64,000 bases of DNA from Heliocybe sulcata (lineage: Eukaryota > Basidiomycota > Agaricomycetes > Gloeophyllales > Gloeophyllaceae). Shown here in pieces: positions 24,165 through 37,586 of the stretch; position 1 is the first letter of the stretch; every line of letters starts with the position of its first letter. Where the stretch lies: positions 319,506-383,505 of the forward strand of contig ML213526.1 of assembly GCA_004369045.1 (NCBI GenBank). Direction: 5' to 3'. The notes under the pieces are model-generated. The model saw only the letters and a list, made by a program, of their open reading frames with translations, searched no databases and had not been told where the DNA came from. Both the position numbers and the translations under genes were made by a program.

Positions 24165-26892
24165 ATGGCCGACTCTTTCGCTGACCTTTGGAACTCGACC
24201 GCTTCCCCGAAACCTGCTCAGTCATCGCGCACGCTAGGCTCTGTATCCCCTTCTCTGAACACTGCATCGAGAGCTCAGCCTGGTCGAGATGTCTTCTCTA
24301 TGCTAGCCTCGGCAGGTTCATCCTCACCCTCCGGAAGCTCTCGGCCGATTACTCCTGCTGTGAATTCATCTCAACGGTCCACACCAAAAGTACCTTCCAG
24401 CCAACCAGCAAAGTCGACAGGCGGAGATGCCTTCGGCTCTCTGTTATCTGGCGCGATTGGAGGAGGGTCGAGCAGCACTAGCGGTATGACGATCGCCCAG
24501 CGCGCTGCGCAGGCTGAAAAGGAGCGGGCTGAGCAAATGCGAAGGCAGCAAGAGGCACATAAAGCTCAGAACTCCGCTTGGGCCGGTTTGGATAGCTTAG
24601 GAACGCCGTCTGTGTCAGCTTCTACAAGTGCTACTGCAGCTACGGATGATTGGGATTTCGGTCTATCCAGCCCTGCTACCACTGTGTCCCAGCCGAAACC
24701 TTCTCCGGCTGCCCTGTCAGTCCATGACGATGATGACTGGGGTCTTGGTGACTTCTCTTCGGCGCCAGTTGCCTCTCCTGTACCCTCTAAACCGCTAGCA
24801 TCCCAGTCTCCGTTCGACCTTGAAGACTTCGGCTCTTCAAGAGATGGCGCCACTCCCACGCGAATCGACTCACCTGGAGACTTTGACTTTGGCGAGAAAG
24901 AAGATCGGCTGTTGGACGACCAGTCGGGAGACGAGGATGACCTACTGGGTGACCTCGGAAAGCCCGTAGACTCTATTCGACGCAGAAGTCCACCAGTGAG
25001 TACTGCGATCCCTAGCTTTGACTAACAACTTACTTGGTCACAGCAATCTCGTCCTCGAGACACTCCATCACCAGCATCCGCAAAACCCGCAACAAACGGA
25101 AGGCCAGTATCGTCACCCCCACACATTGTTGGGCAAATCGTAGAAATGGGCTTCTCACCACAACAAGCCCGGGTAGCGCTGGCAGCCACCGAGACCGGTC
25201 TGGATGTCCAAGCAGCACTCGAAACCTTGCTAGCTAATGGAGCAGCATCTGACTCACCCCCTCCTCGCGACCGCGAACGGGAGCCACCCAGACGGCAGCG
25301 GCGCCCACAACGCGACTCCGACCGCCAAGACAGGGAGAGGACTAGACAGTCCCCGCAGAGTCGTGACTCGGATGGGACCTTCCAAGAGCACGCCGATAAG
25401 CTGCTCGCGCAGGCCAGCGTGCTGGGCGCAAATGTGTTCAGCAGGGCGAACGCGTTTTGGAAGGAGGGGAAGGAGAAGGTGCAGAAGGCGTATGAGGAGC
25501 GGGCTGCTACTGCTGCGAGGGCTACGCCGCCCAGGACGGATGGGAGGCCGCGGTGGATGGTGGAGGCTGAGGAGGCAGAAGGGGAAAGGGAGAGGGAGAG
25601 GGTGCCGAGAGGGGCGAGTCAGAGAAGGAAGGAGAGGGAGGCGAGGGAGGAGCGGGAGAGTGGATTCAGGGATGATGAAGGGGAGAGTGAAGCTCCAAAG
25701 CGGCAGAACGCGCAACCGAAGAGGGAGGAGCCGAAGGTCGGCGATTTGTTCTCTGCTGACGAGCCTAAAGTGTACCGCTCTCCGTTCAGGCATGGTACAC
25801 CGTCGCGGGCAAAGGCATCTGAAGCGTCGGGATCGTCTCCGAAGCCTGTCCCGCCTCCTGCACCCAAGCCCGTGGAGTTGGTCAAGAGACAGACGGTCTC
25901 TGCGTCGGCGGCGGCTCTCGCTACTGCGGCGAAGCATAAGGCTGTTGGAGGGGAGAAGTTCAAGCTGGGGCAGTATAGCGAGGCTGAAGCTGCGTATACG
26001 TCAGCGATTGCGGCCCTTCCAGAGAAACACCTGCTCCTCGTGCAGCTGTACAATAACCGTGCTTTGGCGAGACTAAAAACTGGGAACCATGCCGGCGCTG
26101 TGGAGGATTGCACAACTGTGATTGATATCATTGGGGAGGATTATCGGCCAGATAGAGAGGAGAAGGTGAGCAGGCAAGAGGACGGGGCGGGCGTGGATCT
26201 TGCGGATGGGCTGGTGAAGGCGTGGAAGAGACGGGCAGAGGCGCATGAGGGGCGGGAGAAGTGGGAAGATGCGCAGAAGGATTGGGAGAGGATTGTGGGG
26301 ACTGACTGGGCCGGGAGGGCGAGGGGCGAGGCGGTAGGCGCTGCGGGGAGGTGTAGGAGGATGGTGCAGGCGAGTCAGAACCCCGAAGCAGAGAAGCCGC
26401 CTGCCGCTGCGACGCCTCCTAGGCCGAAGACTTCGGCTGTCGACAGAGCTGCAAAAGCTGCGGGTGTCAAGGCCTCACAGGCTGCGGTGTCGAAGCTGCG
26501 CCAAGCGAATGACGCGGCGGAGGCGGAGGATTCTGCGAAGCACGAATTGAAGGATAGTATTGATTCGCGGATTAGCCAGTGGAAGGGCGGGAAGGAGGGG
26601 AATATTAGGGCGTTGATAGCAAGTCTGGATACGGTGCTGTGGCCGGAGCTGGGATGGGCGAAGGTGGGGATGCATGAGTTAGTGACGCCGGCGCAGGTGA
26701 AGGTGAGGTATATGAAGGCGATTGCGAAGGTGCATCCGGATAAGGTGCGTGGTGCTTTCCTTCGTTGTATGGCGGGATACTCATGGGTTGGGTGGGCAGT
26801 TGAATGCGGGGAATACGACGGTGGACCAGAGGATGATTGCGAATGGAGTGTTTGCAGCGTTGAATGATGCGTGGAATGCGTTTAAGCAGTGA
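24165..26892 (+). CDS. SWA2: Auxilin-like UBA-TPR-J protein (Swa2-like)
   Basis: Predicted 874-residue cochaperone that would recruit Hsp70 to strip clathrin from vesicles. Exons 24165-24995, 25044-26744 and 26800-26892. Domains in order: a Ser/Thr-rich clathrin/adaptor-binding region with repeated D-D-W and F-D-L-type motifs (DDWDFGL, DDDDWGLGDF, SPFDLEDFG); a UBA domain near residues 300-345 (IVEMGFSPQQARVALAATET); a long charged linker; TPR repeats (KHKAVGGEKFKLGQYSEAEA, LYNNRALARLKTGNHAGAV); and a C-terminal J domain with the H-P-D tripeptide (AIAKVHPDK) ending in LNDAWNAFKQ. Splicing at 26745-26799 is needed to reach that ending. The architecture and domain order match fungal Swa2. Confidence 0.93.
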
Positions 26893-32237: not shown

Positions 32238-33529
32238 AGTCTCGCATATCTACTCGCTCTCGAAGCAAAAGAACGTGCGCGACTCCATGCAGCCATGCTC
32301 CATCGTCCATCTGACCGTTGCCCCAAGCAGCCCACTCCGACGCCATCTGGGGCATCCATTTCTCGCCCAGCTCACACATCATCTCCGTATCGGCCTCGGG
32401 CCAGGTGCACGCGTACGACTCGACGTCTGGCCAGCTCTCGGCATCGGCGCCACCGCATACCCTCGGGGTGACGAGTCTCAGCGTAGGCGCGGGTGGGAAG
32501 AAGGTGCTGTATAATACGATTGAGGGGTTGACGGCGCTGTGGGATGTTGAGAGTGGGGAGGTACAAGGACGTTGGGAGAGTTATCGGAGGAAGGGTGAAT
32601 CAGAGCCGGGTAAGCGACGGTTAGTGATCACGAATGGGTAAACGAGTGCTGACGAGGACGTGCGAAGCGTGGTCTGTCTCGTTGAACCCCACTGGAGCGA
32701 CGTATGCAGCTACTGGTGGAGGTGGTAACGCGATTATCCATTCCGCAGATCCGTCTTCCTTTGGCGAGCCGCAAGCGAAGCTCTCGAGCGGCAGGACCAA
32801 GTTTGGCATGTTTTGTAAACACGTAAGTACGCTCTAACTTGTCATGGTTTTGACGTTTATGATACTTTGCTCCTCGCAAAGAGCCCAGACGGCAGTCGTC
32901 TAGCGCTCTCATCCGAAACTGGACAAATCTATGTGTTCGACCTTGCATCGACGCAGCTCACCGCGACATACACCTCCCATGCGATGGCAGTCCGTTCGTT
33001 AGCATGGAGTCCGGACTCGCAGGTGAGCTATTTCGTGTCTCTTCGACCGTAATATCTGCGTATCTGCGCGCATACATCGACGGTTTTCAAAGTGGACTGA
33101 TCGAACAGTGATACGAGTAGCTTTATGCTTCATGCTGACATGTTGGACATACAGCTATTACTGTCTGCGTCGGAAGATAAGCGAATGATTCTACATGACG
33201 TCCGCGGTGCAGGCGGAGCCGTCGCCTCATTGACCGGACACACGTCCTGGGTGCTCGCCAACGACATCTCACCCGACGGACGGTTAGCCGTCTCAGGGTA
33301 CGTAGATCCCCACTTCAAAGCTCTCTGTAGTCTTACTAATTCTCTCGCTAGGTCCGCGGATCGGACTGCGAAACTGTGGGACCTCTCTGCGCGGACGTGC
33401 GTGTCGACGATTCAAGACCCGTGTGCTGGCGAGGTGTGGGGCGTGTCGTGGGCGAAGCACGGGATGAATGCGTTTGTGGCTGGCGGAGAGGACGGGGTGG
33501 CGAGGGTGTTTAGGGCGGGTGGGGCGTAG
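32238..33529 (+). CDS. SKI8: Ski8-like WD40 repeat protein (5' end unresolved)
   Basis: WD40 protein resembling Ski8/WDR61, a subunit of the cytoplasmic Ski complex that feeds RNA to the 3'-5' exosome (in fungi it also has a meiotic recombination role). Supported exons are 32238-32274, 32331-32609, 32668-32822, 32882-33022, 33155-33297 and 33352-33529. Repeats are visible as AHSDAIWGIHFSP, AWSVSLNPTGATYAATGGGG, SPDGSRLALSSETGQIYVFD, DISPDGRLAVSGSADRTAKL and GEVWGVSWAKHGMNAFVAGG. The last blade and the short tail fit Ski8 in length. I could not place an ATG in frame: the first supported exon (SLAYLLALEAKE) begins at an acceptor at 32237, so a tiny upstream exon is missing from this model. Confidence 0.82.
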
Positions 33530-34438: not shown

Positions 34439-35483
34439 TCAGTCCAGACGTTGAAGCAGCTGCGAAAGTCGTCAGTGTCGTCGTAGAAGAATCACGTTCA
34501 AATCCCTCACGTATTGCACCTCGATTTCCGATGTGATAGGTACGAGCTCATGGAACAGGGTTTGCGTGGCCGCCTCCAACGTGCTGTTAAAGGTAACAGG
34601 CAGGATAGCGCCCGCTTGGATCCACCCCGCGGAGAACCCGCTGGCAGCTGTGGACGCTTGGGCGTATACAGCGGCCTCTTGGGTGGTGTTTGTGATAGCG
34701 GCGAGTAAGCCGGCAGAGTCGCTCGCCTTGATTAGTTTGGTCATCTCCGTGACGTTGCTAGCGTATTTCGTCTCTGCGACGACCTTCCCGATGTGAGCGC
34801 TTCATATGGTCTTGTTCGTTAGCTGGTTACTTGGCGGATGCATCGACGTACCGGTGCGACAGCAACGCTAGGAGAGTGGCGTCGAGGTTGTATACTGCGT
34901 CGGGGTTGTAAGTCGAGTTGTCGAGGTGGTAGAAGTAGGAGGTGGAGGAGTTGAAGAAGGGAACGAGTGTGGTCAGGTAGAAGGTTGTGATGTTGGGATT
35001 ACCCGAGTACGTGTCCTGGTGGAAGCGGCCGGGAGGGAAGGGGTCGGAAGGAGTGGCGATGTCCGGAGGGATTGGGGGCAGGGTGAAGGGGTATTCGAGT
35101 TTGCCGTAGTCGTAGCGACCTGAGGAAGCTGCTGAGGTCTCGCGGGCGAGTAGGTAGGACATGAGTCCGGCTCCGTCGTTGGCGTAGAGGTCTGGCGGGG
35201 TTACCAGGTTGATCCTCTCGGTCAGGGCACTGGGTCACGTCCGTGAATGCGAACTGGTTAGATTGTCGAGGCAGCTGGTATTTACCTGATGATGGGGGCT
35301 TCGAGGTTGGCCAGGATGTCCTTGAAAGAGTCAGCGAGACGATATCGCGGATGTTACGGAGGAGATGGTCCGTACCCGGATTTGCGCGAGGCCTGGTACT
35401 GGTAGGTACGGACGCGCTAGTGCCAGCGCCGATTGGACGCTCCACAGAGAGAAGAAGATTAGCAAGGCCTGTGTGCTGACCAT
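34439..35483 (-). CDS. Secreted chorismate mutase
   Basis: Predicted 276-residue AroQ-type (all-helical, eukaryotic) chorismate mutase with an N-terminal signal peptide (MVSTQALLIFFSLWSVQSAL). It would convert chorismate to prephenate, but outside the cytosol. Exons read leftward: 35376-35483, 35286-35320, 34852-35229, 34511-34799 and 34439-34459. Family signs are ILANLEAPIISALTERINL, RYDYGKLEYPF, the regulatory-loop region with added Asn-Thr/Ser glycosylation-like sites, HIGKVVAETKYAS, LLAAITNTTQEAAVY and the ending HELVPITSEIEVQYLLQRLD. Comparable secreted enzymes are known from smut fungi (Cmu1 class), where they act as plant effectors; that function is only suggested here. A TATA-like element lies near 35561-35568. 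Confidence 0.85.
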
Positions 35484-36315
35484 GGCGCAGACGGTGAACG
35501 TTGAGCGTTGAACGTTGAACGCCAAGAAGAACGTCAGTGGGTTGCCAACGGTGGAAGGTGTTATAAATACTCTGCATCGTTTAATATACCTGTGATGATC
35601 CGTAACTTCCAATAGCCCGTAGCCAGCGACTTCGCCTCGCGATGGCGAAATTCCACCTTATTATCGTACGTTTCGTGCTCCCATCATCCGCTAACAAAGT
35701 GAATGTTAGTCCGTATCGCCCGGACCTCACCTCAGACCACCTCATTTTTAGGTTAAATCATGGGCTATAACCCGGTACTATGGGGATTTATGGAGATATG
35801 TACTGCTAAAGTCCGGGTAGTGCCGGGTAAGCCTGTCACATGACGTCACATGTCTTCTAACTCATCCTCAAAACCCACAATTGTGCGCAGGAGTACTATG
35901 ATCTCTAACCCCACGACAATTCTTGGCGCTGCAGATGTTCCATGGCACGACCTGGTGATCCCGCCAGTACTTGGATATATCCCCGCATTCATCAAATCTC
36001 CGTCTACTCAATCTGCTCCCGCCAAAAATCGAAGCGCAGGTCAAAGTTCGTGGCACCACCCATGCTGCTAGAAGCGGGCCAGAAGGGCTTTTCTGTCCAT
36101 GGCCACATTGGTTTATATAGCAAGGTTACCGTTCCGCGCGGACGAAAGTCCCAATGGGATCGCGGAATCCCCGTAAGGCTCAGAAGGTCGACCAACAGTC
36201 GTACCTCCGGAGATAGTCAATCAGAGAGAACCCTTCGCCTATGGAGCCTCATAATCTATATCTCTGCGCCACTGGAATGCTACGCCGTCCCCAGCTTTTC
36301 CTCTCCTCCGTCAAC
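35484..36315. other. Divergent intergenic region
   Basis: Holds the promoters of the leftward chorismate mutase gene and the rightward SDR gene. A short repeated phrase (GAACGTTGAGCGTTGAACGTTGAAC) near 35496-35520 forms a small tandem array. No gene seen. Confidence 0.45.
35561..35570 (-). promoter_or_regulatory. TATA-like box of the chorismate mutase gene
   Basis: On the minus strand GTATTTATAA lies about 80 bp upstream of the ATG at 35483. Position and sequence only. Confidence 0.45.
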
Positions 36316-37586
36316 ATGTCGAAGCAACTGGTCTGGCTCGTTACAGGAACGTCGTACGTCTGGAAGGTCTGTATATTTTTCTATTCGGGCTAATGGGATT
36401 GTTAGGTCTGGCATCGGCCGTGAAATCGTGCTGGCAGCTCTAGACCGAGGAGACCACGTCATTGCGACAACTCGAGGGCGTTCTTTTGACGCTCTGGCGG
36501 CTCTGAAGGAAAAAGGCGCAGCTATCCTGGAATTGGATGTTACGGCGCCGATGGAGAAACTCGATGCCATTGCGGCCGAGGCAGTCAAGATATATGGCCG
36601 AGTGGATGTCCTCGTCAATAACGCGGGTGACCGTTCCTACGAGGCTCCTCGTATAGCGTTATGGTATGCTAATCAGTACCGCCTTTCAAGGGATAGTTAA
36701 CGCGCTTGGAACGCTAGAAGACCTGAGGTACGATACTCACCCCATTTAACAGAAACACTTATTTCTACTCGTCATTTCGCAGGCCAGAGGACACATTGCA
36801 GCAGTTCAAGTACGCAGTGCACTGTATTAATTACAGGTATACATGCTGATAAACCCCAGCACGAACCTCTTCGGGCCTCTAAACGTCACCCGCGCGTTCC
36901 TGCCGTACATGAGGGAAAGACGGACAGGCACCGTCGCCTGGATCGGGAGCGTCGGCGGGTACAGGTAACCTTCGCCTCTTACATCCCTACCCTCTTCCGC
37001 TCACAGTGAAAACTAGCTTCATACCACTCTGCGGACTGTACTGCGCTACAAAGGCCGCCATGATCCGTAGGCAGCTAGCTGCATTCGACTCGATTTACAC
37101 CAAGTTGACTTTGACCTTATTCCAGGCGTCTCCGAGGCCCTCAACGTAGAACTGCAGCCTTTCAACGTCCGATCCATCTGTTTCGATTTTGGCTGGTTCA
37201 ACACGGAGCTGGCGCATCCCGACCGGCTCGCGCCGCTCACCCAGCGGATACCCGACTACAAACAAAAAGCGGAGGATTGGAACTCATTAACCCGGAGTGC
37301 GCATTTTCACTACGTCTCACATGGCTCTCGTTTAACGCGCGCGTCGTTGCTCCCAGAGTATTACCAGAACCTCCCTGGAGATCCGGTGAAAGCCGGGAAA
37401 CTCCTGGTCCAGGTCATCCGAGGGGAAGGCGTAGCCTCCGGGAAGGCGGTCCCGAGTCGGTTCGCTGTGGGCGCGGACGCGTACGGTGTTATCAAGGACG
37501 ACGCGGTCACGTCGGCGGAGAGGCTGGAAGCATGGAGGGACGTGAGCGCGAGCACGGATGTCGAGAAGGCTGCGGTGGCCATCTGA
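36316..37586 (+). CDS. Short-chain dehydrogenase/reductase
   Basis: Predicted 312-residue classical SDR, exons 36316-36353, 36406-36626, 36691-36727, 36783-36809, 36860-36964, 37017-37066 and 37126-37586. Motifs: cofactor-binding TGTSSGIG across the first intron, LDVTAP after strand 3, NNAG in VDVLVNNAG, and the catalytic Y-x3-K in LYCATKAA. The body TLQQFNTNLFGPLNVTRAFL follows the fungal pattern for this subgroup. Substrate unknown. The C-terminal part (SLLPEYYQNLPGDPVKAGKL) is matched by an isolated minus-strand fragment at 45860-46000. It lies tail-to-tail with the membrane-protein gene at 37704, with only about 118 bp between the stop codons. Confidence 0.88.

Follow-up and report, generated by a model that had tools for sequence, protein, structure and literature searches.

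Fungi are already known to secrete chorismate mutases, and these have been discussed chiefly as tools against plant salicylate (PMC12607891). Cmu1 of Ustilago maydis (PDB ID: 6fpf) has the eukaryotic AroQ fold, is of a secreted type and has lost its control; it is held to have presumably arisen by duplication of an endogenous enzyme (PMC12607891). The SsCM1-like isochorismate-pyruvate lyase/chorismate mutases of Sclerotinia are also secreted and occur outside biotrophs, but they are of a bacterial, PchB-like type, and saprotrophic Agaricomycetes are named among the carriers (PMC12607891). Here we describe a gene at positions 34439-35483 of a 64,000-nucleotide stretch of DNA (the window) from the basidiomycete Heliocybe sulcata, order Gloeophyllales, whose predicted product shares the fold, the secreted type and the loss of control with Cmu1, and an occurrence outside biotrophs with the SsCM1-like enzymes, from which it differs in being of the eukaryotic type. 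Compared with the cytosolic ARO7 enzymes of TIGR01802 (yeast Aro7, PDB IDs: 1csm and 2csm; maize, 6h3p), it has a leader, N-glycosylation sequons, a clade-specific loop and none of seven regulatory residues. Bacteria also export chorismate mutases (*AroQ or AroQ-gamma), which are extracytoplasmic and debated as to their purpose, and which belong to another subclass and kingdom than the window protein. Going by titles and the opening lines of abstracts in the open-licence literature, no study of a secreted eukaryotic-type clade in Agaricomycetes was recognisable, and such a clade of saprotrophs looks new.

The Heliocybe gene and its cytosolic counterpart

The interval 34439-35483 runs precisely from the stop to the start codon of one spliced minus-strand gene, whose predicted product of 276 amino acids is free of cysteine and is assigned to the secreted-type eukaryotic AroQ chorismate mutases from its spliced translation, its PDB, TIGR01802 and Pfam matches and its relatives. 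Its five exons, all on the minus strand, are separated by introns of 55, 56, 52 and 51 bases, each GT..AG. Exon 1 (35376-35483) encodes the leader and the start of helix 1 through the catalytic Arg36, which aligns with Arg16 of yeast Aro7, and is followed by exon 2 (35286-35320). Exon 3 (34852-35229) encodes helix 2, the clade-specific loop and the next helices, ending, by intron phase, two bases into the Arg174 codon; exon 4 (34511-34799) supplies the final base of that codon and then the catalytic Lys185, Asn211, Glu215, Thr263 and Glu267, and exon 5 (34439-34459) encodes LLQRLD and the stop. This last exon is absent from the top database match, the deposited H. sulcata chorismate mutase P0001 (100% identity, 98% query coverage), which reads through intron 4 and ends in EVQYVRDLNVILLRRH, so that the conserved LLQRLD is lost (window 34439-34510). 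Because 44 of 47 relatives end as our model does and none of the 47 holds the read-through letters of P0001, we take the EVQYLLQRLD ending to be right.

A phmmer search of solved chains matched the protein to the cytosolic enzyme of maize (6h3p, E 7.1e-15), to four yeast sequences (2.3e-14 to 6.1e-14) and to other plant and Candida chorismate mutase chains (E 7e-9 to 7e-12). The yeast, maize cytosolic and Candida matches span residue 29-31 through the end of the protein; this whole-length match to solved eukaryotic chorismate mutases places it in AroQ (AroQ-beta) and bears out the original prediction, which had claimed an AroQ fold from the first helix to EVQYLLQRLD. The best NCBIfam match is TIGR01802 (model positions 3-247, E 1.6e-24), with bacterial-type models reaching at most 13.7 bits, and the match to Pfam CM_2 barely passes its cut-off (27.6 vs 27 bits). 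Since the TIGR01802 score of 86.9 bits lies under the curated cut-off of 170.9, the protein falls outside this ARO7 equivalog by score; six further clade members score 43.6-89.2 bits and four cytosolic proteins 300.2-322.6.

Searches with TIGR01802 and for homologues located a second chorismate mutase gene in the H. sulcata genome, at C7:733806-734960. Its product of 310 amino acids is leaderless, 100% identical over its full length to the deposited P0049, and scores 300.2 bits on TIGR01802. This is the separate cytosolic ARO7 that the original prediction had proposed to look for, and because it is present, the objection that the window gene might be the only chorismate mutase in the genome fails. 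Both types occur together in at least eight species: Heliocybe sulcata, Gloeophyllum trabeum, Collybia nuda, Plicaturopsis crispa, Hypsizygus marmoreus, Pluteus cervinus, Lyophyllum atratum and Sistotremastrum niveocremeum. The window protein shares 69 of 252 aligned residues with the ARO7 of its own genome and 69 of 225 with yeast Aro7, while ARO7 and its yeast counterpart share 99 of 242. No intron of the window gene has the exact place and phase of an ARO7 intron; the last introns of the two genes agree in phase but lie three codons apart, and the third introns lie about four columns apart in different phases. Since the window protein is not clearly closer to its own ARO7 than to yeast Aro7 and the introns are discordant, a recent duplication of ARO7 is an unlikely origin. 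TIGR01802 was used in place of Pfam CM_2, because a genome search with the latter returned nothing and was uninformative: it missed both real enzymes, whose interruption by introns is the presumable reason. Querying the genome with the window protein at E up to 1 recovered its own exons and nothing else; as ARO7 was missed too, this result bears on close extra copies, of which none was seen.

A clade with a mostly intact active site, a lost control site and a predicted leader

Relatives of the window protein were found in at least 27 named species among the matches listed, all of which we take to be Agaricomycetes; the search detects only sequences sharing exact words with the query, so that a wider spread is possible. 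Besides the Gloeophyllales, to which Heliocybe belongs, we presume the carrier orders to be Polyporales, Agaricales, Amylocorticiales, Russulales, Gomphales, Hysterangiales and Geastrales, together with Sistotremastrum. Most of the named carriers are, as we understand them, wood or litter saprotrophs; presumably, Gautieria and Hysterangium form mycorrhizas, Bondarzewia rots roots and butts and Asterophora is a mycoparasite. A tree that includes 24 cytosolic rows separates all secreted rows from the rest by one branch (100/100) and all cytosolic rows by another (93/99), with a very long inner branch (7.84), a long-branch warning from the program and an unsettled root; its row asco_6h3p is mislabelled, 6h3p being the maize cytosolic enzyme. 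On sequence grounds, the window gene belongs to a clade separate from ARO7, and the duplication behind this clade may be old.

Residues were compared in a clade alignment of 48 rows, which also supplied the secreted rows of the tree and was made up of 47 of the 54 relatives and our own gene model in place of P0001; P0042, P0043, P0045, P0047, P0171, P0175 and P0176 were omitted for length or odd make-up, and P0048, an ARO7-like protein, stands outside the clade counts. The profile and structure model were built on alignment A1, of 42 sequences, and the cytosolic set consists of the 120 listed of 1842 matches. The original prediction had asked whether the active site is retained: all seven residues that we take to be the catalytic set of yeast Aro7 (Arg16, Arg157, Lys168, Asn194, Glu198, Thr242 and Glu246) are present in the Heliocybe protein and in 42 of the 48 clade rows, and the mean majority fraction across the core alignment columns is 0.66. 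The seven residues, Arg75 among them, that we assume to form the Trp/Tyr regulatory site of yeast Aro7 are all absent from 46 of the 48 clade rows, with one of seven kept in the other two, and are all present in 117 of the 120 cytosolic rows. The place of Arg75 and its surroundings is occupied by the clade loop, residues 85-120 (GRYDYGxLEYPFTLP...FPPGRFHQD; 35013-35120, minus strand), which was delimited by motif count and alignments A1 and A3. In this loop all relatives but one (46 of 47) carry a motif of the R[YFH]xYGx[LM]E type; its R[YF]xYGx[LM]E form is absent from all of 119 cytosolic rows. A profile of the loop (A3) matched no solved chain at E 10, yeast and plant enzymes included, and so says little about Cmu1.

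Two side observations concern the active site. The position of yeast Asn194 is occupied by Lys in 118 of 119 cytosolic Agaricomycete rows and in the Heliocybe ARO7, and by Asn in 46 of 47 secreted-clade rows. Two clade members look catalytically impaired, namely P0040 of Asterophora parasitica, in which two catalytic arginines are altered, and P0022 of Infundibulicybe gibba, in which the Asn and a Glu are altered.

The leader of the window protein has the hydrophobic stretch ALLIFFSLW and, by hydrophobicity and the -3,-1 rule, candidate cleavage sites after residue 18, 21 or 23, one of them between ALA and R. In line with the original prediction, the protein is predicted to carry an N-terminal signal peptide, which we place at residues 1-23 (MVSTQALLIFFSLWSVQSALALA followed by RPY; 35415-35483, minus strand). 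No in-frame ATG lies 5' of the start codon before a stop is reached, and the next in-frame Met after the start is residue 71, within the fold. Because this Met follows the catalytic Arg36, no downstream start yields a complete leaderless enzyme, and the leader therefore belongs to any complete product that starts in the present exon 1. By a simple leader criterion, 44 of the 55 clade proteins have a leader, and a comparable hydrophobic stretch ahead of helix 1 was found in one of 120 cytosolic ARO7 proteins; the cytosolic rows were scored by hydrophobicity alone and on a shorter stretch ahead of helix 1, which makes them a weaker control than the counts imply. The stretch up to the helix-1 Arg has a median length of 18 residues in cytosolic ARO7s vs 41 in the secreted clade.

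The several N-x-S/T sites that had been noted in the window protein number six, and because one of them, N211, coincides with the catalytic Asn position, five are plausible for glycosylation. Across 47 relatives, five of the six, the catalytic one included, recur in 18 to 42 proteins, and the sixth, N245, in two. Clade proteins have a mean of 4.71 such sites in their core, or 3.81 without the catalytic-Asn site, vs 2.17 after shuffling; cytosolic ARO7s have 1.04 vs 1.17. With the catalytic site excluded, 43 of 48 clade rows have more sites than the mean of their own shuffled sequences, as do 48 of 120 cytosolic rows. This enrichment supports passage of the clade proteins through the endoplasmic reticulum (ER).

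Proposed role and alternative explanations

Taken together, the sequence data suggest that the window protein is most likely an active, feedback-free and exported enzyme. As to its role, it seems to us an even call that this is a general extracellular chorismate-removing paralogue of ARO7: exported, N-glycosylated, dimeric and free of control. What was computed is the gene structure, the fold match, the kept active site, the lost regulatory residues, the enrichment of leader and sequons in the clade and the separate cytosolic enzyme; actual secretion, glycosylation, the dimer, catalysis, a source of chorismate and a benefit to the fungus are inferred. We propose that the paralogue leaves the cell by the secretory path, N-glycosylated on the way, and would act as a dimeric AroQ chorismate mutase beyond the cytosol, where, with its Trp/Tyr control site gone, it would convert whatever chorismate it encounters to prephenate, unchecked by feedback. 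Prephenate is acid-labile, and in the acid surroundings made by brown-rot fungi it would pass spontaneously to phenylpyruvate; on this account a second enzyme would be unnecessary in acid decayed wood. The chorismate that it removes may come from microbes nearby or from plant tissue; salicylate, catechol siderophores, folate and quinones are all made from this compound. Its removal from neighbours or dying tissue would be our first choice of benefit, ahead of a role in an internal compartment or one directed at plants. A further-reaching claim, which we advance tentatively and with some doubt, is that Agaricomycetes have retained since their early history an exported, feedback-free chorismate mutase with a role unrelated to living plant hosts: chorismate would be a commodity outside cells in rotting wood and litter, and the enzyme would destroy it, for example depriving neighbours of siderophores and further compounds made from chorismate.

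Several observations weigh against this proposal. Of the 55 clade proteins, 11 have no leader by the criterion used: five are short pieces (P0042, P0043, P0045, P0047 and P0175), two are odd (P0171, of 545 amino acids, and P0176) and P0016 falls short by rounding only, but P0003 from Gloeophyllum, P0019 from Abortiporus and P0037 from a metagenome are near full-length and have no clear leader. At least one catalytic residue is lost in six of the 48 clade rows. A genome search with PF00800 for an exported second prephenate dehydratase returned two overlapping matches, which represent one place, within the limit that introns set on such searches. Chorismate is not known to us to be abundant outside cells.

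That the enzyme works inside the fungus, in the vacuole, the ER or vesicles, where it would feed or drain an aromatic pathway, is unlikely. In favour of this, a leader implies just entry into the secretory path, and the fungus's own chorismate would be an obvious substrate. Against it, the protein ends in LLQRLD, with no KDEL-type signal, and past the leader no 19-residue window has a mean hydropathy above 1.07; nor does any of the ten neighbouring frames, six of which lack a Pfam match, encode an aromatic pathway gene.

The original prediction had called the enzyme effector-like and pointed to Cmu1. An effector of that kind, directed at plants, would enter living host cells and lower chorismate and hence salicylate, perhaps in a latent endophytic phase. 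We regard this as improbable. Cmu1 scores 41.1 bits with the clade profile A1 and 18.4 with the cytosolic profile A2, a gap that had prompted the idea of Cmu1 descending from the same secreted lineage. Control profiles of seven sequences each gave 34.9 bits (A5, broad canonical) and 33.7 bits (A6, narrow clade); because these score Cmu1 alike, the gap is explicable by profile breadth, and the idea was dropped as unproven. A profile of the C-terminal half (A4) puts Cmu1 tenth, at 31.2 bits, after yeast and plant enzymes. The effector reading is weakened because a special kinship with Cmu1 is unsupported and most carriers are, by our understanding, saprotrophs, H. sulcata itself presumably living on dry dead wood. 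With the clade present in so many species, the secreted-type enzyme is not peculiar to Heliocybe, and it is probably not specialised for plant disease.

A non-catalytic relic or binding protein on the old fold is very improbable: the changes in six of 48 rows, Asterophora and Infundibulicybe among them, would suit it, but the seven residues are intact in all the others, Heliocybe included, at well above the majority fraction typical of the core columns. That the leader is an artefact of the gene model is scarcely credible, since, the leaderless Gloeophyllum, Abortiporus and metagenome proteins notwithstanding, most relatives have a leader, the start codon has no in-frame alternative outside the fold and the sequon enrichment is independent support.

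The original prediction had also called such an enzyme notable in a wood fungus. This is fair, though secreted enzymes of the PchB-like type have been mentioned before for saprotrophic Agaricomycetes (PMC12607891). A conserved eukaryotic-type clade in fungi of dead wood and litter, with its active site kept and its control dismantled, makes the salicylate-centred view testable: either the carriers encounter living hosts more often than is assumed, or an exported chorismate mutase is of general use outside cells. If the host-independent role is true, secreted chorismate mutase would be an old tool of saprotrophs and not a mark of biotrophy. For effector screens the clade is a caution, as a signal peptide on a chorismate mutase does not make an effector.

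Pathway searches and neighbouring genes

A search of the H. sulcata genome with TIGR01803 gave no match, but the same kind of search with PF01817 missed two true enzymes; a search with PF20463 was also negative, has the same weakness with intron-split genes and is not relied on. Isochorismatase-like matches in the genome number five at E up to 0.001.

Around the window gene, ten neighbouring frames were compared with Pfam, yielding WD40, short-chain dehydrogenase and TPR/UBA matches and a weak MYND match, with six of the ten matchless; none is an aromatic pathway gene that would point to a biosynthetic cluster. A short-chain dehydrogenase gene (35909-37583, plus strand) adjoins the chorismate mutase gene and points away from it; its frame 35909-36697 matches Pfam adh_short and its frame 37071-37583 has no match. 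The other neighbour is the end of a WD40-repeat gene (33101-33529, plus strand), and a frame with UBA and TPR domains lies at 25026-26867 on the plus strand. Immediately upstream of the chorismate mutase start codon, at 35500-35521, there is a near-repeat run, GTTGAGCGTTGAACGTTGAACG on the plus strand.
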